Below are positions 13,248 through 48,865 of a stretch of DNA of 61,656 nt, piece after piece. The notes under the pieces are model-generated. The model searched no databases. It worked only from the letters and a program-made list of their open reading frames with translations, and was not told the DNA's origin. Source of the stretch: Beijerinckiaceae bacterium (GTDB taxonomy: Bacteria > Pseudomonadota > Alphaproteobacteria > Rhizobiales > Beijerinckiaceae); the NCBI GenBank assembly GCA_947456505.1, contig CANGTC010000007.1, positions 1 through 61,656 of the forward strand, written 5' to 3'. The position numbers were made by a program, and so were the translations under genes. Positions within the stretch are counted from its first letter, which is position 1; every line of letters starts with the position of its first letter.

Positions 13248-16200
13248 TTAGCCACGGATTTGAATGATGGTTTGAGACAGTGTAGTCGTTGTCTCAATCG
13301 CCTTTGCGTTTGCCTGGAAGTTACGTTGCGCGGTGATGAGGTTCACCAATTCCTCAGTGATGTCGACGTTGGAGCGTTCAAGAGCGCCCGCTTTGATGGT
13401 GCCGAATCCGTCAGCTCCTGCTTGCCCCAACACCGCCTGACCGGATACCGAGGTCGCGACATAATCAGCGTTGCCTACTTGCTTTAGGCCGTTGGCGTTT
13501 GCAAAGTTGGCGATCATGATCTTTCCAAGCGCTGCCGTTTGGCCATTTGTGTAGTTGGCTCGGATCGTCCCGCTTGCATCGATGTCGAGGCCGTTGAGGC
13601 TTCCGGAAGGATAACCATCCTGAGACAGCGAGAGAACCGAGAAGGGAGACGAATACTGGGTGGAGAACTTGCCGTAATCGATGTTAAGGCGCAAAAGATC
13701 GGAACCGTTTTGCGGGTCAAAGGGAGAGTAAACAACACCCTCTTTCGGAGAGATAAGTTTACCGACGGTATCGAACGTAAGCTGACCTTCCTTGAGGTAG
13801 AGAGGAAACCAATTTTGTTCAGAGGTCGGTGCTTGTGTTGTTATGGCTCCGGATCCATCAACATAGAGCTTGTTCCCCTGCGCATCCGTCGCCTGCTTGA
13901 GGTTGGTGATGATCGGGACGGATCCAGCCGTTTGGGTGACGTTGGCAAGCCCAAAGTTGGCGTGCCCGACGACGTTAATTTGGGAGTTTGGACCCGTTGT
14001 ACCTGAAGTGAATGTCAAGTTGTTGTTGTCCGCATTGAACTTCACGGTGACGCCACTGACGATGCGGCCAGTCTTGGGATCCTCAATCTGATTTACGCGG
14101 TCCTGGATGGCAGATGCAAAGGTATCGCCGGTGTATGCACGGATGGGAAGCGTGATCGTTCCCACAATGCCGTCAATGGTGAAAGTCATCTTGTTTTCAC
14201 CAAGCGCCTCGTTCAACATGAAGGTCTGGCTCATTGGGGTGACGCCACGTGTTCCTACTGCTGTCGCTGCTACAGACGACAAACCAGTCCCCGGGACGAA
14301 TTGTTGCATGGCGGAGTACTTCACACCGATGCCAAGCAGGTCGTTATCGCCCAGGAAACCTGTCGTTTTAGCCTCGCCGATGCTAAGGCCAGCGCGACTT
14401 GTCGACCCCTGGGATCCGATTGGTGACATGTTTTTTACAACGCCATCGATCCGGAGGTTAAGCCGGAACGGCGTTCCCGCAGGATCTCCTGTGACTTCTA
14501 GATTTGACGTATGGCCTATTGTGATCGGACCTATATTGGGGGGTCTGACTGTTATACTGTGCCCGCTTCCGTCTCCTACAGCGACCTGCTCTATGTTGAA
14601 TTTACCAGTGATGTGGCCAACTGTTTTGTAGGTGCCAACAATCTTGTTGCCGATATCTGCTGCGAAAGTAACGCTCGGAAAAGCTCCTGTTAAGCCGTCC
14701 GCTAGATCGTTGAGCGTAGGGTTATTCTGGTCGAGGGTTATTTCAGAGATAGAGACTGAGCCGTTGGCGTTAGGAATTGTTACGCGATATACATCGCCCT
14801 TCATAAGTTGCGGGGCGGTTCCAAGGCTTGATGTAAAGACAATTGTTTGTTTCGTCGGAGTTGTGACTGTTCCATCAATGACGCTTGGGATGCCGGCTAC
14901 CGTTTTTGCATCAGTTAGTTGTACGGGCGTGCTCAGGGAGTCTGATCCACGTTCCGATTGGTTGACGAGCAGGATCGATGACACCGGGCCATTAGTTTTA
15001 TATGTCACTTTGAATAAATTGTCTGAGTGTTCAACTGTTACTCGACCGCCAGTTGCTGTATTGACCGCAGTAGCAATCGCGGTGCTAAGCGCATTTATTC
15101 GTTCTGTTGTCCCTAACGTTGTTGATGAAAGTTGTATGGGTCCTACATTTACCTGTATTGGATTGTTGGTCCCCGGAATTGGAGGTAGTGTGAGTGAAAA
15201 TTTGTCATTGTTCATAATCTTTCCGTATACATGAAAGGTCTGAACTTCGCTGGATGTAGGTGATCCCATGGCTTCCTGGGTTGGATCATCAAAGGTAACG
15301 GGGCACGCCTGTTCGATGCCATTGTAGAAGGCGCTGGCGTCTGCGGGGTCGATGCCATTGGGTGGTGTATAATTGTATGTTAATGTTCTGCCGTTGATTT
15401 CCAGAGTAGCGGTATGCGGTTGGTCGAATTTTAGTCCACTGACGTCGTACGAATTGACTTGAGCTGTGATGTCCGGATTTCCCGCGAGGCGTGCGCGGCC
15501 GACAGTAATTGAAGAGACCTCACCGGTGGACCCAGAACTGAATGAGAATTGTCTAGTATCCTTATTGTAGTTTACAACGATGCCAGTGCGTTGTTCGCGC
15601 GGATCCAGTATGGGGTCGCCACCTGGAAGCGCTGCGCTGCCGCTCCACATAGTATTTGCACGGATCAGTACGGGTTGGCTTGTTGTTTGGGGTGGCAAGC
15701 CCAAATCATTCATCGTATCGGTTGGGTTGTAAACCTGAATGCTGTTGAACCGGCTTTCAGGTTCGTTGGCGTCCGGACCCAGTTGGGCTGGGTCAACCGT
15801 AAATGTGAAAGAACGCGATGATACGTCATATCCTACGATGATCGGTGGGCTGCTTGCATCTGGCCAGCTCGTGGGCTTCCCGAATTCCAGATGGCGTGCC
15901 TTCAGAGCGTCATTTAGTTTGGATTGAGCCGTAGCGACCAGCTGATCGCGAGTTAATTGTAGTTTGTTTTCCGAGGTTGTCGCCGTTAAGTCTGTTGTGA
16001 TGACTGGCGGAGTGCCCGCGGATCCAGCAGTACCAAGGAGATCAATTTCAATTGGATTCGGCAAGGCTACCGATGATCCGTCTTCGGCAAGGCGGGTCAG
16101 ATTAAGTTTTAATATGTCGTTCCCTGAAACGATCGCTCCGCCTTGTTTGCGGTAGGTGTCCGTTATGCTGAAGTAATGCTGGCCACCAAATTTTTCATTG

Positions 16201-17366
16201 ACGGCGCGTGTCATCTCCGCCGCAAGCTGCGTACCAGTGTACTTGCCCGCTCTGATGCTGATGGATTGGGGGGCTGAACCGTCCACCGACACTGAGAACA
16301 TGTCGACGCCCCAGTAAGGCGGGTTTGAGCCGATAGCATCGGCCGAACCGCTGTCTCTGGTTTTGAAGAAGTCTTTCGGGTCGGTGATGATCGTGACTGG
16401 CTGCGCGTCCGTGTCGCCGAAGTCAAATCCCGTTGTTTTCATAATACCGCCAACTACCGCTGCTGCAGTCGACGGAGTTTTGTCTGTCTGATCGTCCTGC
16501 TTGTAGAGTGGGTGCGCCGCGCCTGCGTTGAAGGTGGGGTCGACGGCTTGCGGGCTAGTGGTGATTTGACCAAACTTGTTTATGTAATAAGTCTTGCTCT
16601 GGTCGTCCTTGGCGGTGATCAGCTGTGGCGTGACTTCTCGATCGCCGACGAACACATGGGTTTGCCATTTGTTGGTCGGGTTTGTCTCAGTCGCGTTGCT
16701 TGTTTTGACGTAATAGATTGTCGCGATTGTTGCGTTGCCAAGCGAGTCATAAATGGTGATTGATGTCGATTGATTATAGGTCGCCGGGTTTGTCTTATCG
16801 AAGACGTATGGATTGCTGGGGCCATATGTCGAGCTACTGGGAATGATAGTTGCGTCGGCCGGTAGGTTAAGACCCAGCTGGATTGTTTGTGATGCTTTTG
16901 GCAAGCCTGAGGTTGTTGGAAGTTGAAGATTCTTTGCCGAACTGATGCCTGTGGCGATAACCGATCCGTCGGCGTTGACTGGGAACACCTGAAGCAATTG
17001 ACCCTGGGCGTCGACAACGTAGCGGTCGTTGTTCACACTGAATGAACCGTCGCGGGTATAAACGGTTTGCGTTGAAGTGAGGCTCGGCTTGAGAGCAAAA
17101 AAGCCTTGGCCGGAGATGGCAAGATCTAGCGCGTTCAAGCTTGATTGGATGTTACCCTGCGTGAACTGCTGCTTGATCGACTTCATGATGGTGCCGGAGC
17201 CGACGGCGGAACTGTTGGCTTGCAGGGGAGAGGTGGCGAAGATATCGCCGAATTCTGCGCGCGACCGCTTGAAGCCTGTCGTGCCCACGTTGGCGATGTT
17301 GTTCGAGATGGCGGAGATGTCCGCCTGGGCGCCATTGAGGCCGGTGAGCGAGGTATAAAATGACAT
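13248..17366 (-). CDS. flgE: Giant flagellar hook protein FlgE
   Basis: Hook subunit. The N-terminus (MSFYTSLTGLNGAQADISAISNN and the GTTGFKRSRAEF motif), the ALDLAISGQGFF motif and the C-terminal helix (ALERSNVDITEELVNLITAQRNFQANAKAIE) are canonical, and the gene lies in the normal place between flgD and flgF. At 1372 aa it is about three times the usual 400-600 aa. The extra mass is one continuous middle region of beta-rich sequence. It includes several modules that resemble flagellin-type insertion motifs, for example near residues 735-800, 858-910 and 1058-1130. The enlarged part should project from the hook surface. Confidence 0.93.
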   Translation of the reverse strand: MSFYTSLTGLNGAQADISAISNNIANVGTTGFKRSRAEFGDIFATSPLQANSSAVGSGTIMKSIKQQFTQGNIQSSLNALDLAISGQGFFALKPSLTSTQTVYTRDGSFSVNNDRYVVDAQGQLLQVFPVNADGSVIATGISSAKNLQLPTTSGLPKASQTIQLGLNLPADATIIPSSSTYGPSNPYVFDKTNPATYNQSTSITIYDSLGNATIATIYYVKTSNATETNPTNKWQTHVFVGDREVTPQLITAKDDQSKTYYINKFGQITTSPQAVDPTFNAGAAHPLYKQDDQTDKTPSTAAAVVGGIMKTTGFDFGDTDAQPVTIITDPKDFFKTRDSGSADAIGSNPPYWGVDMFSVSVDGSAPQSISIRAGKYTGTQLAAEMTRAVNEKFGGQHYFSITDTYRKQGGAIVSGNDILKLNLTRLAEDGSSVALPNPIEIDLLGTAGSAGTPPVITTDLTATTSENKLQLTRDQLVATAQSKLNDALKARHLEFGKPTSWPDASSPPIIVGYDVSSRSFTFTVDPAQLGPDANEPESRFNSIQVYNPTDTMNDLGLPPQTTSQPVLIRANTMWSGSAALPGGDPILDPREQRTGIVVNYNKDTRQFSFSSGSTGEVSSITVGRARLAGNPDITAQVNSYDVSGLKFDQPHTATLEINGRTLTYNYTPPNGIDPADASAFYNGIEQACPVTFDDPTQEAMGSPTSSEVQTFHVYGKIMNNDKFSLTLPPIPGTNNPIQVNVGPIQLSSTTLGTTERINALSTAIATAVNTATGGRVTVEHSDNLFKVTYKTNGPVSSILLVNQSERGSDSLSTPVQLTDAKTVAGIPSVIDGTVTTPTKQTIVFTSSLGTAPQLMKGDVYRVTIPNANGSVSISEITLDQNNPTLNDLADGLTGAFPSVTFAADIGNKIVGTYKTVGHITGKFNIEQVAVGDGSGHSITVRPPNIGPITIGHTSNLEVTGDPAGTPFRLNLRIDGVVKNMSPIGSQGSTSRAGLSIGEAKTTGFLGDNDLLGIGVKYSAMQQFVPGTGLSSVAATAVGTRGVTPMSQTFMLNEALGENKMTFTIDGIVGTITLPIRAYTGDTFASAIQDRVNQIEDPKTGRIVSGVTVKFNADNNNLTFTSGTTGPNSQINVVGHANFGLANVTQTAGSVPIITNLKQATDAQGNKLYVDGSGAITTQAPTSEQNWFPLYLKEGQLTFDTVGKLISPKEGVVYSPFDPQNGSDLLRLNIDYGKFSTQYSSPFSVLSLSQDGYPSGSLNGLDIDASGTIRANYTNGQTAALGKIMIANFANANGLKQVGNADYVATSVSGQAVLGQAGADGFGTIKAGALERSNVDITEELVNLITAQRNFQANAKAIETTTTLSQTIIQIRG

Positions 17367-20360: not shown

Positions 20361-21173
20361 TTACCGGGTTAGTGTTTCGATGGCGGAACGAAGCATTTCC
20401 GAGCCTGTTTGGAGCGCCCTGGCGTTTCCGTTGTAGGCCTGCTGCGCTCGTATCATGTTGAGAAGTTCCGCCGTCATGTCGACATTGCCCTGCTCAAGCG
20501 CGCCTTGTGAGATATCGCCAAATCCGTTGACGCCTGCGCGGCTATATTCCGCCTGGCCTGACAGGGCGGTTTCGCCGACCATGGAGCCACCCAGATTTTT
20601 CAAACCATCTTCATTTGTGAAGCGCGCAAGCGCAACTGCGGCGATTTTGGTCGAAGTCCCATCCGTCTTCTGAACGCTGATCACGCCTTTGTTGTCGATT
20701 GCGATGGAGTTGACCTTTGTCAGGTCTCCCCCCACTGCGGCGAGGATATTAACGGCTTTAGGGTTGGTGCCCCCCGCCAATGGCAGCCCCATGAGCTGGC
20801 GGCCGCTACTATCAGTGAGATCGCCATTAACGCCAAGCTTTAGCTGCCCAGCTCGCGTGTAGGAAAATGTAGGATCAGAACCGGAAGCGGCTTGGTCCGC
20901 GAAGGTGAAATGGCCTGCGCCCATGATGGCTAGGTCAAGGGAGCTTTGAGTCGTCTTTATTTCACCCTGTGTATCTGTGCGTCGCACGGATTGTTGCACT
21001 GTTCCTTGACCCACTGTGACGCCCGGGCGTTCACTCTGACTAAGGCCGATCACATCGACGAATTGGGAGGTGGAGCGTTTGAACCCCACTGTCATAGCAT
21101 TCGCAAGATTGTTGGAAATGACGCTGAGGTCGCGCGAGGCGGACATCACGCCGGTAAGGGCGGTTTGGTTCAT
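20361..21173 (-). CDS. Extra hook/rod-family protein (FlgE/FlgF/FlgG paralogue)
   Basis: 270 aa. The N-terminus (LTGVMSASRDLSVISNNLANAMTVGFKRSTSQF), the SLDLAIMGAGHF motif and the C-terminal helix (LEQGNVDMTAELLNMIRAQQAYNGNARALQTGSEML) place it in the rod/hook family. FlgE, FlgF and FlgG are already accounted for in the main operon, so this is an additional member. Its size is closest to FlgF/FlgG and it lacks a large outer domain. It stands alone with its own consensus sigma54 promoter at 21228-21242. Possible roles are a rod segment, a hook-tip or adaptor subunit, or an alternative short hook. Which one is not decidable here. Confidence 0.85.
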   Translation of the reverse strand: MNQTALTGVMSASRDLSVISNNLANAMTVGFKRSTSQFVDVIGLSQSERPGVTVGQGTVQQSVRRTDTQGEIKTTQSSLDLAIMGAGHFTFADQAASGSDPTFSYTRAGQLKLGVNGDLTDSSGRQLMGLPLAGGTNPKAVNILAAVGGDLTKVNSIAIDNKGVISVQKTDGTSTKIAAVALARFTNEDGLKNLGGSMVGETALSGQAEYSRAGVNGFGDISQGALEQGNVDMTAELLNMIRAQQAYNGNARALQTGSEMLRSAIETLTR

Positions 21174-39312: not shown

Positions 39313-40638
39313 CTATGGTAACAGGGCCTGGAGCCTGGCTTCACTTTCTACGAAGGTTGATCGTTCTTGCATCCCTTGGGCGATGTATCCGACCATGGAA
39401 GAATGCAGCTGAAACGCGACATCAAGTTCGGGATCCTGCCCGGCCTGGTAACCGCCGAGCAGCATCAGATCGCGATTTTCCTCCCAAAGGCTCAGGTAAC
39501 GCCTGAATTTGCGAGCGCGCGCGATATGGCTTGGCGATACGCAATCAATCATTGTGCGGCTGATGGATGCGTTGACGTCGATAGCGGGGAAGATGCCCTG
39601 TTCGGCTTGTTTGCGGGAAAGCACAACGTGTCCATCGAGGATGGCGCGTGCGGTGTCGACGATGGGATCGTTGGTGATGTCGTCACCGTCGGCCAGAATG
39701 GTGTAAACACCGGTGATGCTGCCCCCTGTTTGTGAATCTATTCCGGCGCGTTCAATCACTGAACCGATGAGAGAGATCACGGATGGCGGATAGCCCTTGG
39801 TGGTCGGATGCTCGCCGAGAGCGAGGCCAAGCTCTCGCTGCGCATGGGCGACCCGGGTTAGAGAGTCTATCATCAAAAGCACGTTCTTGCCCTGCGAGCG
39901 GAAATATTCCGCGTAAGCGGTCGCTCGATGCAGGCCCCGAAGGCGCAAGACCGGAGATTGATCTGCTGGAACGGCCACCACGGTGGTATGGGCGAATGAT
40001 GGCGAGGTTGATAGCTCCTCGACGAAGCCCGCGACCTCTCGTCCGCGCTCTCCAATCAGGCCGATGATGACGACGTCCGCTTCGGTGAAACGCGCGATGC
40101 AGGACAGCAAAGATGATTTGCCTACGCCGCTGCCAGCGATAATACCGATCTTTTGACCGCGTCCAACGGTCAACAAGCCATTGAGCGCCCGCACGCCAAC
40201 ATCAAGCGCCTCGCGAACCGGGCGGCGGCGCAATGGATTTACGCGCTCGCCACGCAAAGGCGCGTGATGGGGAAGATAGGCGGCGCCGAGGCCATCCAAT
40301 TCATTGCCTGCGCCGTCGAACACGCGGCCAAGCAGTCCATCGCCCGCCGCCACAACGTCCGCGCGATGCGTCGTTTCCACCCGTGCTCCTGCGAGCAGGG
40401 GCGCCGAGCCGCCTGTCAAAACCATGACTGTGTAATTGTCGAGAAAGCCGATGACTTCGGCCTCTGCCCATTCGCCATTTTCGCACGCCACTCGACATTC
40501 CGTGCCCACTGACGCCGGAAAGGAGGTGGCGTGAACAATCTGTCCGTCATAGCGCCTGACCCTGCCAGCAGCGTTGGTCAAACGCGTTCCCTTGATGCTT
40601 TGCAAGCGGCGATCAAGGACTGTCGCCAGATCATGCAT
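39313..40638 (-). CDS. fliI: Flagellar export ATPase FliI
   Basis: Hexameric ATPase that energises substrate unloading at the export gate. 441 aa. Walker A is AGSGVGKSS at residues 168-176. Walker B is VLLMIDSLTR. The characteristic GERGREVAGFVEEL and the arginine-finger region (GYPPSVISLIGSVIERAG, TGGSITGVYTILADGDD) are intact. It is homologous to F1-ATPase beta. Encoded between fliH and fliJ. Confidence 0.96.
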   Translation of the reverse strand: MHDLATVLDRRLQSIKGTRLTNAAGRVRRYDGQIVHATSFPASVGTECRVACENGEWAEAEVIGFLDNYTVMVLTGGSAPLLAGARVETTHRADVVAAGDGLLGRVFDGAGNELDGLGAAYLPHHAPLRGERVNPLRRRPVREALDVGVRALNGLLTVGRGQKIGIIAGSGVGKSSLLSCIARFTEADVVIIGLIGERGREVAGFVEELSTSPSFAHTTVVAVPADQSPVLRLRGLHRATAYAEYFRSQGKNVLLMIDSLTRVAHAQRELGLALGEHPTTKGYPPSVISLIGSVIERAGIDSQTGGSITGVYTILADGDDITNDPIVDTARAILDGHVVLSRKQAEQGIFPAIDVNASISRTMIDCVSPSHIARARKFRRYLSLWEENRDLMLLGGYQAGQDPELDVAFQLHSSMVGYIAQGMQERSTFVESEARLQALLP

Positions 40639-40640
40639 CG

Positions 40641-41474
40641 TTATTCGCTCCGCTGATCTGAAAGCTGAGGCGCATCTTCGTAGTCGAGATCACGTGAGAA
40701 GAGATGGAAGGCGCCGGATTGAAGTTGGGCATCTTCAATGATTCGTATCTTCTCGAATATCTCATTCTCACTAATCAAGTTGGAGAGCGCCAGGAGGTCG
40801 TGAGGGTTCATCGCGAGGGTGAATTCACCGCCGGCCTTTGTAAACATCTCCGCAGCAGATTTAATGCGTTCTACAAAGACGGTCGGCATTTCAGCGAAGA
40901 CTGCCCCAAAGAGCTCCTGCGCAATTCGCCTCACATGATGGGCCATGATGTCGGCGTTGCGCTGCACGGCGTCCTGGGTCAGCGTCGTCAACTGCGCTTC
41001 AAGCTTCCGCAGGGTGGAAAGTGAGGCTCCAATTTCTTTACGTGTCGCGTCGACGCCCTGCTGATAGCCCAGCGCCCGCCCATCCTCTTTCGCCCTTTCG
41101 ATCGCCGCTATGATCTCTTCGGGCGATGGGCCCGCCTCGATTGAGGCGGCAGGGGGTGGAGGAGGAGCCGGGGTCTGCTGATGAGGCGCCGCCTGCGCGT
41201 CAGTGCTTGATTTTGCTTCCGCGCTGGTAGCCGACGCCTCTTTCGGTGGCTCTTCAGCAGTCTGCTGTTTTTCCGTCGTCGCCTCGGGTTCAATTGGACG
41301 ACGGGGCTCGGGAGGCTTTGGGATTGGCGCAGGTTTGAAGCTGTTTCTGCCCCAAGGTACAAAGCTTGCGTCGGGGGCTCTCCCGTAGCGGCTTTCGACC
41401 TGAAAATCCCCGCCACGCTGCAGAAGCGTTGCGATCTCGGATAGTTGTACGGAGCGTTGCGCTTGCTCAGACAT
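40641..41474 (-). CDS. fliH: Export ATPase regulator FliH
   Basis: Binds FliI and anchors it to the C-ring. 277 aa from the ATG at 41474, which overlaps the fliG stop; an in-frame GTG at 41486 is the alternative. The N-terminal third is Pro/Glu/Ala-rich. The helical part (about residues 120-180) includes EDGRALGYQQGVDATRKEIGASL with glycine-spaced helices typical of FliH, and the C-terminal domain resembles the delta/E subunit of rotary ATPases. Sequence similarity is modest; context is decisive. Confidence 0.88.
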   Translation of the reverse strand: MSEQAQRSVQLSEIATLLQRGGDFQVESRYGRAPDASFVPWGRNSFKPAPIPKPPEPRRPIEPEATTEKQQTAEEPPKEASATSAEAKSSTDAQAAPHQQTPAPPPPPAASIEAGPSPEEIIAAIERAKEDGRALGYQQGVDATRKEIGASLSTLRKLEAQLTTLTQDAVQRNADIMAHHVRRIAQELFGAVFAEMPTVFVERIKSAAEMFTKAGGEFTLAMNPHDLLALSNLISENEIFEKIRIIEDAQLQSGAFHLFSRDLDYEDAPQLSDQRSE

Positions 41475-42507
41475 AGTCTTCGCCACGTCCAGCCAGGACC
41501 ATTGTGCCAGCGTCGGATAGCTTGCGTGCGACGGCTACTATGCGCTTCTGCGCTTCCTGGACTTCGGTGACGCGCATGGGGCCCTTCGCTTCCATTTCAT
41601 CGACGATGGCTGCCGCCGCACGGGACGACATACAACCCAATATCTTGTCTCTAAGCCGCTCGTCGGCGCCCTTGAGCGCGATGGATAGATCCGTCGGCTC
41701 GACATTGCGCATGAGCACGCCAAGGTTCTTGTCGTCGACAGCAAGGAGATTGTCGAAGACGAACATGTTTTCCTGGATCGCGACCATGAGATCCTTGTCC
41801 AGCTTCAACAGGTCCTTCATGATCCGCGTTTCCTGCGCGGCCTGAGTGAAGTTCATGATCTTTGCTGCGGCCTTGACGCCGCCGATCTTTGAAGCGCGCA
41901 ATGATGTATTGGCTTGGAACTGGAGTTGCATCACTCGCTCAAGCTGCTCGATGGCTTCCGGTTGAACTGAATCCAGGGTCGCAATGCGGTGAAGCACCTC
42001 ATGCTGTATGTTCTCGGGCAACAAGATCAGCACGTCCGCCGCTACCGCATAGTCGAGATGCGCTACGATAAGACCTATGATCTGGGGATGTTCGCCTTCG
42101 ATCATCTCCGCAATGGAGCGGGCGTCCATCCATTGCAGAATTTCGATTCCTTTGGCGCTGCTGGAAGGGGTGATGCGGGTCAGAACGCTGCCCGCTTTGT
42201 CCTCTCCCAAGGCCTTGACCAGCATGCGGCGGATATAGGCGTCGGCTCCAAGGCCGACGCTTGTCTGCGCCTTGATGATCGCCAGGAATTCATCGAGAAC
42301 GACATTTACGGTGCGTTGATCCACCTCGGTCACGGAATACATTGCGCTACCGAGCTGTTGAACCTCACGAGGGCTGAGGTTCTTCATTATTTCGGAAGCC
42401 TCGTCCTCGCCCAGGAGCAGCATCAGGATGGCGCATTTTTGCGTTCCCGATAAGAGCCGGATGGCGTCGTCGTCTGGTTCCGGGGATGTCGCCACTGCAT
42501 CAGCCAT
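41467..42507 (-). CDS. fliG: Rotor switch protein FliG
   Basis: C-ring torque-generating subunit that contacts FliF and MotA. 346 aa with the three usual domains. Conserved landmarks are KCAILMLLLGEDEASEIMKNLSPREVQQLGSAM (N), EHPQIIGLIVAHLDYAVAADVL (middle, EHPQ motif) and the C-terminal charged helix (ALKGADERLRDKILGCMSSRAAAAIVDEME). The torque-helix charges (Lys/Arg/Asp/Glu) look normal. Encoded between fliF and fliH. Confidence 0.97.
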   Translation of the reverse strand: MADAVATSPEPDDDAIRLLSGTQKCAILMLLLGEDEASEIMKNLSPREVQQLGSAMYSVTEVDQRTVNVVLDEFLAIIKAQTSVGLGADAYIRRMLVKALGEDKAGSVLTRITPSSSAKGIEILQWMDARSIAEMIEGEHPQIIGLIVAHLDYAVAADVLILLPENIQHEVLHRIATLDSVQPEAIEQLERVMQLQFQANTSLRASKIGGVKAAAKIMNFTQAAQETRIMKDLLKLDKDLMVAIQENMFVFDNLLAVDDKNLGVLMRNVEPTDLSIALKGADERLRDKILGCMSSRAAAAIVDEMEAKGPMRVTEVQEAQKRIVAVARKLSDAGTMVLAGRGEDYV

Positions 42508-42528
42508 GATCGATACCGTTCACTTGTT

Positions 42529-44247
42529 TTAGTTGAGATCGCGTTGGATGAGGGACTTGAGAACCGCTGTCACGCGTGTCGCGTCGTCGCCCACCAACAT
42601 CCGGATCAAGGTAACTTTATCATCATACGTATTCGCCGTGTCGAGCATCTCAGGCGAGATGGTTGACTTCTTCGGCTTGAGCCTTGCCTTGATCTGTTCA
42701 AGGCTCTCGCCTTCGCGCACTTCGATCGTCGCGCCATCTTCCGCAACAGCCGGTTCGTCAGCACGCATGGAGGAGGTCAGCGAGCGGTCGAGGAGGCGTT
42801 CCAGGAAGGGCTTCAGAGCTCCGAGTACGACCACGCCAAGGATGAGAACGACGGCGAGCTGCTTTATCGCGTCCTCGAGCCAGGGGGCGTCAAACCAGGA
42901 GCGGGTTTCGTACTTCTTTTCTTCCGCGAAGCTGCTGGAGATGATGGTCAGCTTGTCGCCGCGTTCCGCATTGTAGCCAACGGCTTCCTGCAGGAGTTGA
43001 GTGAGGCGGGTCTTTTCCTCATCGCTGAGGGGTTTTTCGATGGTCTTGCCATTCTCGTCCACGGAGGTGCCAGAGCGCACCACGACTGCGAGCGTCAGCC
43101 GCTTGATGTCTCCGGTCGCACGCCTTGTTGAGCGGATTTCCTTGCTGACTTCGTAGTTGCGGACGGTGGTGCTTGACTTGTTGCGAGTGCTTTCCGTTGC
43201 GTTCGCATTGCTGCCGTTTGCAGGCGGCGTGGGGGTCAGTGTCGGCGTGTTTGGCGCCTGGTTGGACGTCGCGCCGGGTATGCCACGGCTGCGGCCATCA
43301 GAAGATTCCTGAATCGTCTCCTGCTGACTGCGCATGATCTGCGTCGTCGGGTCAAAAGTCTCGTTCGTCTGTTCAGTGCGAGTGAAGTCAATGTCCGCGT
43401 TCACTTCCGAATTGAAGTTGCCTGTGCCGACAATGGGTGTCAGGAGGTTTGCGACGCGCTCACGCAGAAGCTTTTCCACCTGCGTTTTATAGTCGAGCTG
43501 CTGAGATGACAGACCAAGGTCCGTATCCCGGCTCGGGTTCGTCAGGAGGCCTCCGGACTGATCGACGACGGTCACGCTCGCAACCGGCATGTAGGGGACG
43601 CTTGAGCTCACAAGATGAGTAATGGACTGAACCTGCCCAACTGAAAGGCTGCGCCCGGGCGCGAGCCGGAGAAACACTGAAGCCGAAGGGGGCGTCTGAT
43701 CACGAACGAATGCGGAGCGCTCGGGCAGGGCGAGATGAACGCGCGCGCCTTCGATATCACGGATTTCCATGATGCTGCGGGCGAGTTCGCTCTCTTGCGC
43801 CTGCTTTAATTTTACCTGCTCGACCGCGCGGCTGGCGCCGAGCGGCAACGAAGTCAAAAGATCATATCCTGTCACCGATGCTTTTGGCAGACCGGCTGCA
43901 GCGAGCTGCATTTTTGCTCGGTAGTAGTCGTTCCTTGGCACGAGCAATTGGCCTGTTGACGGGTCCAGCTTGGCTTTGATGCCCTGCGCCTCAAGGTTTT
44001 GCATGACCAGGCCCTTGTCCTCCTCGCCAAGGCGAGGAAAGAGCTGTGTCATCGCTGGTTCGCGCATCGTAAAAATCGCTGCGAGGCCCACCATGATCAC
44101 GAGGCCGACGAGGACGATGGGCATAGAGCGAACAATCGCTGGCTGCCTCATGAATTCCTGGACGCTGGCGAGTCCTCGCATTAGCTGCGGCCCAAATGGA
44201 CCCAAGCCGGCCGGCGATGGAATAGCGACGGGATTGATGTCTGACAC
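42529..44247 (-). CDS. fliF: MS-ring protein FliF
   Basis: Forms the inner-membrane MS-ring on which the rotor is built. 572 aa with two membrane segments (about residues 40-62 and 465-487). The periplasmic ring-building motifs lie between them (LLVPRNDYYRAKMQLAAAGLPK, ELARSIMEIRDIEGARVHLALPERSAFVRDQTPPSASVFLRL). The C-terminal FliG-binding helix is conserved. GTG start with GGAG about 11 nt upstream. The Asn/Thr/Pro-rich loop around 330-370 is typical. Confidence 0.97.
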   Translation of the reverse strand: MSDINPVAIPSPAGLGPFGPQLMRGLASVQEFMRQPAIVRSMPIVLVGLVIMVGLAAIFTMREPAMTQLFPRLGEEDKGLVMQNLEAQGIKAKLDPSTGQLLVPRNDYYRAKMQLAAAGLPKASVTGYDLLTSLPLGASRAVEQVKLKQAQESELARSIMEIRDIEGARVHLALPERSAFVRDQTPPSASVFLRLAPGRSLSVGQVQSITHLVSSSVPYMPVASVTVVDQSGGLLTNPSRDTDLGLSSQQLDYKTQVEKLLRERVANLLTPIVGTGNFNSEVNADIDFTRTEQTNETFDPTTQIMRSQQETIQESSDGRSRGIPGATSNQAPNTPTLTPTPPANGSNANATESTRNKSSTTVRNYEVSKEIRSTRRATGDIKRLTLAVVVRSGTSVDENGKTIEKPLSDEEKTRLTQLLQEAVGYNAERGDKLTIISSSFAEEKKYETRSWFDAPWLEDAIKQLAVVLILGVVVLGALKPFLERLLDRSLTSSMRADEPAVAEDGATIEVREGESLEQIKARLKPKKSTISPEMLDTANTYDDKVTLIRMLVGDDATRVTAVLKSLIQRDLN

Positions 44248-44289: not shown

Positions 44290-44586
44290 TTAAACGGGCA
44301 TGGACATGATGTCTTTGTAGGCGCTGAGCAGCTTGTTGCGGATCTGCATGGTGGCCTCAAAAGCTAGAGAGGCCTTTTCACGCGCAAGCATCACCTTGGC
44401 AACATCCACTTCCTTGCCGCTCTCGAAGGCCTGCGCGGCGTTCCCCGCTTCGACCTGGGCCTGCGCGACCTGCGCCAGAGCATTATTGAAGTGCTGCCAG
44501 AAATCACCGCTTGGCGTTGTTCCGGTTTGCAGCTTCTGCTGAAGGTTGTTTTGGATTTCCCGAGTGAAACCGATCACGTTTGCCAT
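44290..44586 (-). CDS. fliE: MS-ring/rod adaptor FliE
   Basis: Joins the MS-ring to the proximal rod and is the first exported substrate. 98 aa. The C-terminal half carries the FliE signature (VDVAKVMLAREKASLAFEATMQIRNKLLSAYKDIMSMPV). An AAGGAG site precedes the ATG. It starts 12 bp after the regulator fleT; the same fleT-fliE arrangement occurs in the R. sphaeroides fla1 cluster. Confidence 0.95.
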   Translation of the reverse strand: MANVIGFTREIQNNLQQKLQTGTTPSGDFWQHFNNALAQVAQAQVEAGNAAQAFESGKEVDVAKVMLAREKASLAFEATMQIRNKLLSAYKDIMSMPV

Positions 44587-44598
44587 TTTATCGACTCC

Positions 44599-45759
44599 TT
44601 AAACGGTAGCTGCGAGGCGGCGGGGAGCCAGCTCGATGACGTTGAACATTTCCTGGATTTCCAGCATGAGATGCTCACCACGGATTGCTTCGCCTCCCGA
44701 CAGCACAAGGGCGCGTTGCAATACATTCTCGAGTTCTCGGACATTGCCGGGCCAGGCATGAGCTTCGAGCTTCTCGATTGCGTCTTCGGTCAGCTCGGGC
44801 ATCTTGGCGAACCCGCCAGCATGCTTCGCCAGCAAGCTCACCGCGATTGGCAAGATATCGCCGGAGCGTTCCTCGAGCGCTTTGGTCACGAGGGGGAACA
44901 CGTTCAGACGATAGTAAAGATCTTCGCGGAAGCGGCCCGCCTTTACTTCATTCAGCATGTAACGGTTGGAGGTGGCGATCACTCGCACGTCCACCGGCAC
45001 TGGTTTTGCGGCGCCCAAGGGCGTTACCTCCTTCTCCTGCAAGACGCGCAGAAGCTTGGCTTGCAGCGACAAGGCCATCTCCGAAATCTCGTCCAGCAGG
45101 AGCGTGCCGCCATCGGCCGCCCGGAAGATGCCCTTGTTGGGATGATGGGCGCCGGTGAATGCGCCGCGCTCGTAGCCGAACAAGAGAGCTTCGAGCATGG
45201 TGTCGGGAACAGCCGCACAATTGACCGCGATGAAGGGATTGCGGTTGCGGGGAGAGGCCTTGTGCAGGAAGCGCGACAAGACTTCCTTGCCGGTGCCTGT
45301 TGGACCCACCAACATAACCGTGACATCGCTGGCGGCCACGCGCCTGGCAAGACGGAGCAGGTTGAAGGTTGAGGCGTCGCCAGCCGCAGCGCTCTGGTCT
45401 TCATCAATGAAGCGTGCTACCACTTCGGCCGTGAATCGCCAGTTGTTATCGGCGGGGCGCACATGCAACGTGGTTCCGTTGAATTCGCATTTTAACGAGA
45501 AGCCTTTGCCGGCCTCGCCAAGCACGACGATCCGCTCGGCCTTGAGTTGCCGACACCATTTCACGAAGCCGGTCGAGTCTGAGGCCAGTTTCTTCGCTAC
45601 TGCGTAGGACATGAGCAGGCCGCATTGTTGCCAAGTAGGCTCGACAGTATGGAGTTTGGCGACTGTCGCCGTATGCGTCTCGTACCCGCGATTATGCAGG
45701 TGAGTGATCCAGGCTTCTGAATCGGCAAGACTGTCGGTGACACAGAGTACTGCGCTCAC
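44599..45759 (-). CDS. fleT: sigma54 enhancer-binding protein lacking a DNA-binding domain (FleT-like)
   Basis: 386 aa. Residues 1-120 look like a receiver-derived domain without an identifiable phosphorylatable Asp. The AAA+ domain (about 130-365) is complete: Walker A GPTGTGKE (152-159), sigma54-contact loop GAFTGA (199-204), Walker B GGTLLLDE (217-224), and the FREDLYYRLNVFPL and HAWPGNVREL sensor motifs. Only about 20 residues follow, so the Fis-type helix-turn-helix is missing. This is the architecture of R. sphaeroides FleT, which acts by forming mixed complexes with FleQ. Here too the gene precedes fliE and is divergent from a FleQ-like gene. GTG start; sigma54 promoter at 45799-45813. 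Confidence 0.87.
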   Translation of the reverse strand: MSAVLCVTDSLADSEAWITHLHNRGYETHTATVAKLHTVEPTWQQCGLLMSYAVAKKLASDSTGFVKWCRQLKAERIVVLGEAGKGFSLKCEFNGTTLHVRPADNNWRFTAEVVARFIDEDQSAAAGDASTFNLLRLARRVAASDVTVMLVGPTGTGKEVLSRFLHKASPRNRNPFIAVNCAAVPDTMLEALLFGYERGAFTGAHHPNKGIFRAADGGTLLLDEISEMALSLQAKLLRVLQEKEVTPLGAAKPVPVDVRVIATSNRYMLNEVKAGRFREDLYYRLNVFPLVTKALEERSGDILPIAVSLLAKHAGGFAKMPELTEDAIEKLEAHAWPGNVRELENVLQRALVLSGGEAIRGEHLMLEIQEMFNVIELAPRRLAATV

Positions 45760-45798
45760 AGCATTTCCCTTCGTATATTCGTCCTCGGGATGGGAAGT

Positions 45799-45813
45799 GC
45801 AACGGTCGAGCCA
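45799..45813 (-). promoter_or_regulatory. sigma54 promoter of fleT-fliEFGHIJ
   Basis: The minus strand reads TGGCTC-GACCG-TTGC with GG-N10-GC spacing, one change from consensus. The fleT GTG is 40 nt downstream. It implies that fleT expression itself needs sigma54 and so an activator made earlier, plausibly FleQ. Confidence 0.78.
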
Positions 45814-46083
45814 GAGCTGTTTCCGCTTAAGTTACTTACCTTGCGTAAAGTTTCTCGAATTGACCATGTAACTGATTTGCAATGATTTTTTTAAAAACCC
45901 ATTTTGGTGCTTTTGGTGAATTCATGTGGCCTTGTCTGTGTTTTTGTATGCCAGACACCGAATTGCGTTGTGTTTGTGGCTCGGCGTTCTTGATTGTCCG
46001 ACAGTTCCAAGTCAAAAACCCGACAGGCGCAAAACAAACCGTCTGAGATTCGACATCCGACTTTCTCTGGCCGCGACTGCTTC
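45814..46083. other. Divergent fleT-fleQ control region
   Basis: An AT-rich stretch (45880-45900, with runs of T and A) lies in the middle. A possible sigma70 -35 element, TTGACC at 45860-45865, points toward fleQ, but no good -10 lies at a proper distance. An early, sigma54-independent promoter for fleQ would be expected here; I cannot point to it with confidence. Binding sites for the activator are not recognisable by eye. Confidence 0.35.
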
Positions 46084-47241
46084 ATGACCAAGGACGAATT
46101 GTTCCGCTACCTGGATCTTCCGAGCCGCGCCATGCGCGAAGCGCTTGATCTGATCTCCCGTGTGGCGCCGCTATCTACGACTGTCTTTATCAGTGGCCCC
46201 TCGGGCAGCGGCAAGGAGTTCGCTGCGCGCGCTGTCCATGCCTTTTCCACACGAAGCGCAGCGCCGTTCGTCGCTGTAAATTGCGGCGCCATTCCCAAGG
46301 AACTTCTGGAAAGCGAACTTTTCGGGAGCGAGAAGGGCGCCTATACAGGCTCTGTGCGAACCCGGTCTGGATTGCTGGAGACAGCGGCCGGTGGCACGCT
46401 TTTTCTCGATGAATTGGGCGATATGCCGCTCGACATGCAGGTGAAGCTGCTCCGCGTTCTAGAAGATCGGCGCTTTACAAGGGTCGGCGGGTCGCAGGAA
46501 ATCAAAGCCGATGTCAGGCTGGTATGCGCCACCCATCGCGATCTCATGAAAATGGTGGAGGAGGGGCTTTTTCGGGAAGACCTTTTTTATCGTATTAATG
46601 TGTTTCCGATCGCCATGAAGGGACTTGAGGACCGCCGAGAGGATATCCCCCGACTGGTCGAACTCATTCTAAAGCGTTTCAGAGGGCAGGGGGTCGGAGA
46701 AGCGCCGAAATTCCAGCCCTCCGCCATCACTGCTTTGCAAGCTGCCTCATGGCCCGGCAATGTTCGCCAGCTCAGGAACGTGCTTGAGCGTTGCTGTGTG
46801 CTCTATCCAGGCCAGTCCATCGGCGCTGCGGAGATCGAGCGGATTGCAGCCCCGCGCAAGGTGATTGATCGGGTGGAGGAGACAATGGCTTTATTCTCTT
46901 CCGTGCAGGGTTTGGGCTTTGGAGCTCCCGTGACCCAGGAGCCAGCGGCTGCGTCTGAGCCGGAGGAGGAGCCCGGGGATGAGCCGGAGCGAACGATGGA
47001 GCTGGCGCCTCCGATGGCGCCGGATCTGCTCTCCTGTCCCGCTGATGTTCAGGGCTTCTTGCGCGCGACCCCGGATTTCAATTTCCGCGATCATATCATG
47101 CGGATTGAGGTGGCCTTTATCAAAGGCGCGCTGGTTGAAATGAATGGATCGGTAAGTGGGGCGGCGCGGGTGCTTGGACTGCAGCGCACCACCCTTATCG
47201 AAAAGATGCGAAAATACGCGATTGACCGGGAAGACGCCTGA
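46084..47241 (+). CDS. fleQ: sigma54 enhancer-binding protein with HTH and variant GAYTGS loop (FleQ-like)
   Basis: 385 aa from the ATG at 46084; the frame is open to a TTG at 45994, but that extension has no domain. The AAA+ domain begins almost at once, with no receiver: Walker A GPSGSGKE (38-45), Walker B GGTLFLDE (103-110), FREDLFYRINVFPI. The sigma54-contact loop reads GAYTGS (85-90) instead of GAFTGA. An acidic Pro-rich linker (about 280-320) leads to a Fis-type helix-turn-helix (about 350-380: GSVSGAARVLGLQRTTLIEKMRKY). It matches FleQ-class masters of polar flagella and complements the HTH-less protein encoded divergently. No strong ribosome site is visible. Confidence 0.87.
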   Translation: MTKDELFRYLDLPSRAMREALDLISRVAPLSTTVFISGPSGSGKEFAARAVHAFSTRSAAPFVAVNCGAIPKELLESELFGSEKGAYTGSVRTRSGLLETAAGGTLFLDELGDMPLDMQVKLLRVLEDRRFTRVGGSQEIKADVRLVCATHRDLMKMVEEGLFREDLFYRINVFPIAMKGLEDRREDIPRLVELILKRFRGQGVGEAPKFQPSAITALQAASWPGNVRQLRNVLERCCVLYPGQSIGAAEIERIAAPRKVIDRVEETMALFSSVQGLGFGAPVTQEPAAASEPEEEPGDEPERTMELAPPMAPDLLSCPADVQGFLRATPDFNFRDHIMRIEVAFIKGALVEMNGSVSGAARVLGLQRTTLIEKMRKYAIDREDA

Positions 47242-47716: not shown

Positions 47717-47731
47717 TGGCACAAGGATTGC
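47717..47731 (+). promoter_or_regulatory. sigma54 promoter of the second FlgE-like gene
   Basis: TGGCAC-AAGGA-TTGC on the + strand, full consensus. The ATG is 60 nt downstream at 47792. It faces away from the FliA promoter of fliS, so this spacer joins an intermediate and a late class of flagellar genes. Confidence 0.87.
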
Positions 47732-47791
47732 TAGTCACCGTCCGGAAGCTGTTTGTTGCAGCTAGATCCGTAATGGGTGGCGGAGAAACGA

Positions 47792-48865
47792 ATGCTATCG
47801 ATTGTCATGTCCGGCTTGAACGCCGCGCAAAAAGATCTTTCTGTTACCGCCAATAATCTCGCCAATGCGGGCACCACTGGTTTTAAACGGTCCGACGCCT
47901 CCTTCATGGATGTCTATTCGTCAGATCCTTCGGCGAACCCGTCCACGGAGATTGGCGGAGGGACGACCTTGGCGGACATTTCCCGCAGCACCGCCCAGGG
48001 CCCGCTCAAAACCACTGGTAATGTCACAGATCTGGCGATCACAGGGCGGGGGTTTTTCACGCTGGCGCGGGATTCCGGTAGCGCTGTCGTTGGGGCGGAC
48101 CAACTGATCTATACGCGCGCCGGTAACTTCTCGGTGAATACAGCCGGGATTATCGTCGACTCCCAAGGTAACCGGTTGCAGGCCTTTCAGCTGGATCAAA
48201 CAGTCGACCCCACGACCAATCTGGCTTCTGGCAAGCCCTTGATTAGCAGCCCGACGACAGACATCGTTATTCCGACCGAAAAGGGTCCAGGCAAGTCCGT
48301 GGTCACGCTTAATGATACTGTGCCGGTGGGCGCAGAGGTTACCGTGTCCTTCAGCGGTGGTTCCATTCCGCCGCGGCAAGTCACAGCAGCGGAGCATCTT
48401 GCAGGTGTTATGACTTTTGAGTCTCCGGACCTAAACTTTCAAGACGCGTCAACTCTGTCAGCGTCGTCGTCAGCAAATGGCGGCGTCACGCTTGGCGTCG
48501 AATATCAGAACATCTTCACCCAGGGCATCTCGATAGACACCAAGGGTCTCATCAACGTCAATTATAGCGATGGGACGAATTCCGCCATTGGCGCCTTGGC
48601 GATCGCGAACTTTCCGTTTGAGCCTGGGCTCAGGCCAGTGGGCGACACCAATTTCGTGCCAACCGTAGACAGTGGCGCTCCGGTCATGGGTCAGGGGGGC
48701 GCTCCTGCGGCGGGCGACATCCGCTCCGGGATGCTGGAGGAGTCCAATGTCGATATGACCGAAGAGTTGACGCAAATGCTCAAGGCTCAGCAGATCTATA
48801 ATGGAAATGCGCGAATGATGCAGACGTCTGTGGATTTGGTCTCGCGTATCGTCGACAAGATCTAG
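47792..48865 (+). CDS. Second hook-type protein (FlgE-like)
   Basis: 357 aa from the ATG at 47792 (GGAG 6 nt upstream); a GTG 15 nt earlier is less likely. The N-terminus (LSIVMSGLNAAQKDLSVTANNLANAGTTGFKRSDASFMDVY), the VTDLAITGRGFF motif and the C-terminus (LEESNVDMTEELTQMLKAQQIYNGNARMMQTSVDL) are hook-family. Its length is near that of an ordinary FlgE, unlike the 1372-aa FlgE of the main operon. It has its own sigma54 promoter and lies ahead of motA. It might form an alternative hook, a hook segment or an adaptor. Confidence 0.87.
   Translation: MLSIVMSGLNAAQKDLSVTANNLANAGTTGFKRSDASFMDVYSSDPSANPSTEIGGGTTLADISRSTAQGPLKTTGNVTDLAITGRGFFTLARDSGSAVVGADQLIYTRAGNFSVNTAGIIVDSQGNRLQAFQLDQTVDPTTNLASGKPLISSPTTDIVIPTEKGPGKSVVTLNDTVPVGAEVTVSFSGGSIPPRQVTAAEHLAGVMTFESPDLNFQDASTLSASSSANGGVTLGVEYQNIFTQGISIDTKGLINVNYSDGTNSAIGALAIANFPFEPGLRPVGDTNFVPTVDSGAPVMGQGGAPAAGDIRSGMLEESNVDMTEELTQMLKAQQIYNGNARMMQTSVDLVSRIVDKI

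Follow-up and report, generated by a model that had tools for sequence, protein, structure and literature searches.

A divergent FleQ/FleT pair of flagellar sigma54 activators in a Beijerinckiaceae genome and its relation to FleQ and FleR

Introduction

The closest described system to the genes treated here is the FleQ/FleT pair of Rhodobacter sphaeroides. According to two studies the pair is a hetero-oligomer of flagellar sigma54 activators: FleQ activates class II genes, including the fleT-fliE operon, FleQ/FleT activates class III genes, and FleT alone is inactive (PMC11999139, PMC7277832). FleT was called the sole known activator without regulatory and DNA-binding domains in a 2020 review (PMC7175178). 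Here we describe a similar pair, encoded divergently in a Beijerinckiaceae bacterium (GCA_947456505.1, genome 88% complete) on contig CANGTC010000007.1, positions 1-61,656; this whole stretch of 61,656 nucleotides is called the window below. An earlier note on this DNA had proposed that its fleQ-like and fleT-like genes encode complementary activators of the R. sphaeroides kind.

HrpR and HrpS of Pseudomonas syringae likewise act together and lack N-terminal regulatory domains; both carry a helix-turn-helix (HTH). All characteristic central-domain motifs are described as present in both (PMC7057263). The present pair differs in that one partner, FleT, has no HTH. Among Rhodobacterales, the fla3 type makes up 23 of 284 flagellar clusters, with a C. 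sphaeroides cluster as its reference (PMC12363192). This fla3 cluster is taken to be the FleQ/FleT cluster; that paper does not name FleT, and its naming sentence is ambiguous. Literature that names FleT together with FleR draws no link between the two in the text available, and although the pair itself is known, the FleR origin and wide distribution of FleT are possibly unreported.

The FleQ and FleT proteins

FleT had a complete AAA+ core (Pfam Sigma54_activat, 215.7 bits, and the AAA lid) with a GAFTGA loop 1, and no HTH family was found in it at Pfam E ≤ 1; the protein stops about 50 residues past the sensor II motif. Its N-terminal domain of 120-125 aa alternates strands and helices as in a receiver in the AlphaFold model (mean predicted local distance difference test score, pLDDT, 89.1), and full-length matches to receiver proteins, for example NtrC1, extended across it. 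FleT Tyr52 aligned with the Asp of a gammaproteobacterial FleR receiver that we took as the phospho-acceptor. The pattern goes beyond chance: twelve loci of the same genus had GAFTGA in 12/12 FleT open reading frames (ORFs) and an HTH at the end in 0/12.

FleQ matched Sigma54_activat (227.7 bits) and, above the curated cut-off of 22 bits, HTH_8 (30.8 bits); Pfam recognized no N-terminal family ahead of its AAA+ domain, and loop 1 read GAYTGS. FleQ ORFs were found in ten of the 12 same-genus loci (GAYTGS in nine, GAFTGS in one); the other two are L019, which ends at a contig edge inside fleT, and L021, which is the same contig as L058. The Walker A Lys, the Walker B Asp-Glu and the first arginine finger were invariant in both subunits (alignments of 60 and 48 rows), so mixed rings sharing ATP sites are possible.

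Origin of FleT and FleQ

We compared the activators in two trees, one built from 144 AAA+ cores and a separate careful one from 68 rows. The larger tree united 50 alphaproteobacterial FleT rows (genome G494 entered twice) and four HTH-bearing rows of family f36 in one clade (Shimodaira-Hasegawa-like approximate likelihood ratio test, SH-aLRT, 100), which sat within a 70-row FleR/FleT group (98); Rhizobiales FleT formed a single clade (99). In the careful tree FleT plus f36 (46 rows) received 100/100, and FleT was nested inside gammaproteobacterial FleR (81/89). Fold search agreed, as the nearest solved structure to the FleT model was the AAA+ domain of Vibrio cholerae FlrC (57% identity), which we take to be the FleR protein of Vibrio. 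Gene order is also shared, running fliS-fleQ-gap-fleR-fliE-fliF in gammaproteobacteria and fliS, fleQ, fleT-fliE-fliF in the window; the gap holds a 414-aa frame in gammaproteobacterial locus L113, taken as fleS by position. By tree, synteny and fold search, then, gammaproteobacterial FleR/FlrC are the closest outside relatives of FleT. They differ from it at both ends. FleR before fliE carried a Fis-type HTH in 31/31 rows counted (33 loci, by pattern), and all three gammaproteobacterial FleR scanned with Pfam had HTH_8 and a receiver, whereas Pfam found no receiver in the FleT of the window, of G494 or of a marine relative. FleT lacks both a receiver with the phospho-acceptor Asp and a C-terminal Fis HTH, and reads as a former FleR/FlrC response regulator with lost FleS-dependent phosphorylation and HTH, standing in FleR's place 5' of fliE.

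Two other origins were considered. FlbD was the top-scoring NCBIfam model for FleT, at 295.9 bits against a cut-off of 750, and both trees rule it out; FlbD-like rows formed a separate clade outside FleR/FleT with 100/100 in the careful tree. Two separate inventions, one in this lineage and one in R. sphaeroides, find no support, as the rows form a single clade (100/100), though that clade holds the four f36 rows with an HTH. HTH loss within it took two changes on the careful tree and a single HTH-less clade was not rejected (approximately unbiased test, p-AU 0.518), so the HTH may have been lost once or more than once; both fit. Our pattern filter lost the FleT of L165, L170, L175 and L176 (family f44) and of L132, and the f36 row L137; the trees and upstream counts hold 17/21 f44 FleT genomes, and the trees 4/5 f36 genomes.

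Gammaproteobacterial FleQ (FlrA) is most likely the orthologue of the window FleQ, which has no N-terminal FleQ domain. The nearest solved structure to the model of the window protein (mean pLDDT 86.1) was Pseudomonas aeruginosa FleQ (50-51%; 51% for AAA+), and gammaproteobacterial FleQ shares its RTTL-EK recognition helix; the window protein differs in reading GAYTGS for GAFTGA.

Distribution of the pair

We found FleT at 70-100% identity in 12/37 genomes of the same genus, our own included, and in 0/24 from elsewhere in the order; the next-best match had 245 bits (49%). Across 51 genomes of the genus FliE fell into score groups of 84-96 bits (18 genomes) and 51-69 bits (16 genomes). The FleT search covered 13 of the 18 genomes with high-scoring FliE: these were all 12 FleT genomes and G012 (63% complete), which had no FleT. 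Both FliE score types occurred in G017 (contigs C250 and C39), which suggests two flagellar systems there.

Beyond the genus, a scan of named genomes covered the best 80 of 268 relatives, which we sorted ourselves into 35 Rhizobiales/Beijerinckiaceae-type, 11 marine alphaproteobacteria, one Paracoccaceae metagenome-assembled genome (MAG) and 33 gamma- or unassigned proteobacteria. Divergent fleQ-fleT was present in 32/35 Rhizobiales contigs. Class-wide, among 387 alphaproteobacterial genomes, 13 besides the window's had FleT at 445 bits or more (next 403), all before fliE and without HTH (13/13), with divergent fleQ adjoining in 12/13. We take G494 to be R. sphaeroides 2.4.1 and, following from that identity, family f44 to be Rhodobacteraceae. 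Of 345 f44 genomes, 21 had FleT at 452 bits or more (next 289), before fliE and HTH-less in 21/21. Their fleQ adjoined fleT in eight; in 12 of the other 13 a FleQ-like protein whose recognition helix reads RTTL was encoded at another place, and G474, in 340 contigs, had no FleQ-like protein among its matches.

HTH loss in FleT goes with FleQ presence, and the exceptions are G474, G148 and G446. G148, outside f44, had only a diverged FleQ candidate with a GAFSGA loop and an RSTL helix. G446 is the Paracoccaceae MAG, with no FleQ found in its genome; it encodes an orphan HTH-less FleT (L084:7866-8960, +) by apparent 3-deoxy-D-manno-oct-2-ulosonic acid (KDO) synthesis genes, not by fliE. In the five f36 genomes (L135-L139, L195, L196) the FleR relative before fliE ended in an HTH-like ISERTLRYRL helix, Pfam-confirmed in one; L195, the only f36 protein scanned, had the HTH and no Pfam receiver. 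No FleQ was found in these five genomes, where the best matches reached at most 323 bits and were longer proteins with other C-termini (4/5 inspected). The FleQ of L165, L170 and L175 (f44), beside fleT, formed a long branch without the RTTL-EK recognition helix and perhaps has a changed DNA site; our pattern filter scored them as lacking an HTH, yet Pfam found HTH_8 in all three, so we claim no HTH loss for FleQ.

These comparisons uphold what the earlier note had observed and part of its interpretation. Pfam and the relatives bear out an intact FleT AAA+ core with GAFTGA and no HTH, and a FleQ with a Fis HTH, GAYTGS and no receiver; an HTH unseen in FleT, which the note had allowed for, appears neither in Pfam nor in the model. 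The likeness to R. sphaeroides also holds. Both partners are related to the G494 pair, FleQ occurs where FleT does with the exceptions named, fleT precedes fliE in the window, its relatives and G494, and the phylogeny that the note had called for puts FleT in one clade with the G494 FleT (100/100; 51% identity to the window FleT over residues 41-367). FleQ of R. sphaeroides likewise has a Fis HTH and no N-terminal domain. In G494 a sigma54 site lies at 55 bp and a GTC-N8-GAC box at 164 bp before fleT, but fleQ is about 20 kb from fleT, not its divergent neighbor.

Loop 1 of FleQ

Loop 1 was compared in 32 Rhizobiales FleQ, 34 Rhizobiales FleT and 46 other FleQ; a truncated FleQ from L049 (GAYTGS) was dropped. 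The Rhizobiales FleQ loops read GAYTGS (15), GAFTGA (9), GAFTGS (5), GAYTGA (2) and GSFTGA (1), giving Tyr at position 3 in 17/32 and Ser at position 6 in 20/32, while FleT kept Phe3 and Ala6 in 34/34. This difference, a drifting loop in FleQ and a constant one in FleT, is real. The other FleQ had 76 columns with at least 90% conservation. Fewer than 85% of Rhizobiales FleQ kept nine of these columns, among which were loop positions 3 and 6, invariant in the other 46. Two non-loop columns that are invariant in other FleQ were likewise changed, so the FleQ loop does not stand alone in this. On a FleQ tree made without the loop, its changes at the two positions cost three and two steps. G1, T4 and G5 were constant in all 32, which argues that the loop is not decaying. 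In a wider count, which includes some shortened loci and loci counted twice, other FleQ groups read GAFTGA or GSFTGA only, and gammaproteobacterial FleR read GAYTGA in 5/31 rows.

Both substitutions are known singly in working activators. Tyr occurs at position 3 in TouR and Ser at position 6 in PrpR, both experimentally validated (PMC3162934), and Tyr is noted to replace the loop Phe in a few activators (PMC7057263). Against a working FleQ loop stands the report that the majority of GAFTGA mutants are inactive (PMC7175178). Judged from sequence, the GAYTGS of FleQ is a clade-specific, altered, probably working and perhaps weaker loop.

The fleT promoter and its FleQ-type box

With a weight matrix built from a sigma54 consensus and a threshold of at least 13, the window held 15 sigma54 sites, compared with a mean of 3.95 in 20 shuffles of the window (about 0.01 per upstream region). 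Nine lay 25-109 bp 5' of a gene start and pointed towards it, matching the nine promoters of the earlier note. Of 36 Rhizobiales loci four are shortened; the other 32 were examined and all had the fleT site, at 52-58 bp in 31 and at 317 bp in L058. It was also found in 16/18 f44 rows (15/17 genomes, G494 counted twice) and 10/21 marine rows. Before fleQ, no such site appeared in any of 61 rows.

A GTC-N8-GAC box occurred 5' of fleT in 32/32 Rhizobiales regions (200 shuffles: mean 1.93, maximum 6), in 11/18 f44 rows (10/17 genomes; shuffled 1.27, maximum 5) and in 8/21 marine rows (0.41, maximum 3), closer to fleT in most f44 and marine rows than in Rhizobiales. It is similar to GTCaNTAAAtTGAC and GTCAaAAAAtTGAC, proposed as Pseudomonas FleQ sites, of which the first is described as unreliable and the second as too stringent genome-wide (PMC6120874). 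A flgE-like promoter (site at 47717 in the window) had a sigma54 site in 24/27 loci and GTC-N8-GAC within 500 bp in 6/27, at scattered positions. The flgB and flhA/flgP sites of the window also have the string within 80 bp, but with 17 such strings in the whole window these boxes may be chance. The sequence-only picture is thus of fleT with a sigma54 site and a FleQ-type box, and of fleQ without a sigma54 site.

Mechanism and alternatives

Domains, relationships, synteny, the conserved promoter and box, and the loop statistics come from sequence; from these and the R. sphaeroides precedent we infer oligomers, DNA binding, promoter classes and loop activity. We consider it probable that in this bacterium, which is close to freshwater MAGs of Beijerinckiaceae type, the pair forms a flagellar cascade in which FleQ alone starts fleT-fliE and, by homology, FleQ with FleT drives later promoters. 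FleQ would bind GTC-N8-GAC about 200 bp 5' of the fleT sigma54 promoter, and a FleQ-only ring would start fleT-fliE-fliFGHI. FleT would then join FleQ via the AAA+ faces, FleQ guiding the mixed ring onto DNA while FleT contributes GAFTGA loops, and the mixed ring would drive the later promoters; the GAYTGS loop may shift the set of promoters fired by FleQ alone. The proposed order of events draws on the fleT upstream region. In 32/32 loci this region combines a sigma54 promoter with a FleQ-type box, so an activator is needed at fleT before the first FleT is made, and because FleQ has the HTH and fleT the box, FleQ is the candidate.

Several observations weigh against this cascade. In the tree, alphaproteobacterial FleQ (40 rows, 88) and gammaproteobacterial FleQ (16 rows, 98) lay in the half that also holds NtrC and NtrX, and they were not recovered as sisters, so FleQ orthology leans on synteny, the recognition helix and the fold search. 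The G494 FleQ reads GAFTGA where that of the window reads GAYTGS, and equal function is therefore not guaranteed. The consensus by which the box is read as a FleQ site comes from Pseudomonas and was judged unreliable in one chromatin immunoprecipitation (ChIP) study (PMC6120874). No aligned box was present at the flgE-like promoter, the sole later promoter compared across loci, and fleT may be transcribed from a sigma70 promoter. Three of the 35 Rhizobiales contigs did not show the pair: two begin inside fleT, and in L058 the 858 bp 5' of fleT gave no match to fleQ.

The earlier note had favored an obligate or preferred hetero-oligomer, with the variant loop making FleQ dependent on FleT. A preferred hetero-oligomer is plausible by homology. 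In the obligate form GAYTGS would disable FleQ on sigma54, all flagellar sigma54 promoters including that of fleT would need FleT, and leaky or sigma70 transcription would prime the system. Positions 3 and 6 of loop 1 do vary in Rhizobiales FleQ but neither in FleT of the same clade nor in the other FleQ groups counted, and HrpR/HrpS offers a co-dependent precedent (PMC7057263). We nevertheless find the obligate form unlikely, given that the two substitutions are tolerated singly in TouR and PrpR, that GAYTGA occurs in gammaproteobacterial FleR, that G1, T4 and G5 of the loop are constant, and that the fleT promoter is of sigma54 type in all 32 loci examined; FleQ probably switches on fleT ahead of the first FleT, which argues against it. 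The claim that the loop makes FleQ dependent on FleT likewise finds no support, and the note's formula that each protein has what the other lacks was too strong: FleQ still has a complete ATPase and a loop that differs in two residues, each tolerated singly. In a further reading, which seems to us doubtful, the changes Ala6 to Ser and Phe3 to Tyr re-tuned the loop of Rhizobiales FleQ, leaving rings of FleQ alone able to open the fleT promoter only, while the other flagellar promoters need mixed rings in which FleT supplies the canonical GAFTGA loops.

FleT could instead work mainly as a brake or timer, mixed rings taking FleQ off its fleT box and so shifting the cascade on from class II genes to those of class III. 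A conserved box at fleT, unaligned at the flgE-like promoter, hints that these promoters may not have the same DNA sites, and the R. sphaeroides division between FleQ at class II and FleQ/FleT at class III (PMC11999139) would suit such a switch. A pure brake would have no need of the GAFTGA and ATPase residues that FleT retains, and we think this role improbable. It is still harder to credit that FleT is a homo-oligomer acting from solution without DNA binding, with FleQ as a separate class II activator. The AAA+ core is complete, and Helicobacter FlgR and Chlamydia CtcC are activators without a DNA-binding domain (PMC3162934), but FleT of R. sphaeroides is inactive by itself (PMC11999139), FleQ was found elsewhere in 12 of the 13 f44 genomes that lack it beside fleT, and the f36 genomes without detected FleQ keep the HTH on their FleR relative. 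The cascade of FleQ followed by FleQ/FleT thus remains our preferred reading.

Genome setting and features of the window

Sigma54_DBD had one match in the genome, taken as rpoN, and Sigma54_activat had nine, five of them above 170 bits: FleT, FleQ, an NtrC-like protein (GAFTGA), an NtrX-like protein (motif absent) and a receiver-HTH protein (GAFPGA). The NtrC-like and NtrX-like labels were assigned from sequence. On this predicted complement FleQ is the sole obvious DNA-binding flagellar activator found in the genome. The GAFPGA protein is a receiver-AAA+-HTH activator on contig C145 (L004:1051-2550, +), and with Thr changed to Pro it probably has no sigma54 activity by the constraints of a published survey. 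The fleQ-like ORF was listed at 45994..47241 (+) as 415 aa from a TTG, and relatives place its start at the ATG used in Table 1.

Table 1 Features of the fleQ-fleT locus, in window positions
Feature	Position	Strand	Evidence
fleT-like gene, sigma54 activator with GAFTGA, without HTH, FleR/FlrC lineage	44599..45759	-	ORF, 386 aa
Receiver-like N-terminal domain of FleT, about residues 1-120	45400..45759	-	AlphaFold pLDDT about 90; FleR receiver alignment
GAFTGA loop 1 of FleT	45148..45165	-	F3 and A6 kept in 34/34 clade rows
fleQ-like gene, sigma54 activator with Fis HTH, without N-terminal domain	46084..47241	+	385 aa from ATG
GAYTGS loop 1 of FleQ	46336..46353	+	Sequence
HTH_8 (Fis-type) DNA-binding domain of FleQ	47104..47217	+	Pfam 30.8 bits; helices in AlphaFold model
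sigma54 promoter TGGCTCGACCGTTGCA, 54 bp 5' of fleT start codon	45798..45813	-	Site of at least 13, 32/32 loci
FleQ-type box GTC-N8-GAC, GTCGGGTTTTTGAC on -, about 200 bp 5' of fleT sigma54 promoter	46011..46024	.	32/32 loci
Second GTC-N8-GAC, weak	46041..46054	.	At this place in 4/32 loci only
fliE, first gene after fleT	44290..44586	-	ORF and FliE search
fliF, fliG, fliH, fliI, same direction as fleT-fliE	39313..44247	-	Named by sequence; order repeated in relatives

The hook protein FlgE (13248-17366, -) is very long at 1372 aa, as is the hook-associated protein FlgK (5012-9232, -) at 1406 aa, each with recognizable end domains and a large middle. Besides this FlgE, extra FlgE/FlgF-like proteins are encoded at 47777-48865 (+) and 20361-21173 (-), downstream of sigma54-type sites. 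A 145-aa protein of unknown kind (633-1070, -) has a sigma54-type site (1122, -) 52 bp 5' of its start.

Significance

HTH-less FleT is a family across several alphaproteobacterial families, traced to the kinase-controlled FleR. Together these proteins form a natural series, from FleR with HTH and receiver, through a FleR relative with an HTH, no recognized receiver and no FleQ found, to FleT with neither and usually with FleQ, which lets one ask how an activator loses its grip on DNA and comes to depend on a partner. FleQ variants reading GAFTGA, GAFTGS, GAYTGA and GAYTGS within one clade offer natural material on the number of good loops that a sigma54 activator ring needs. If the re-tuned loop were true, the two-step flagellar order would be set by loop 1 chemistry and ring composition, beyond DNA sites, in an activator ring class derived from FleQ-FleS-FleR that has lost the kinase, receiver function and HTH.

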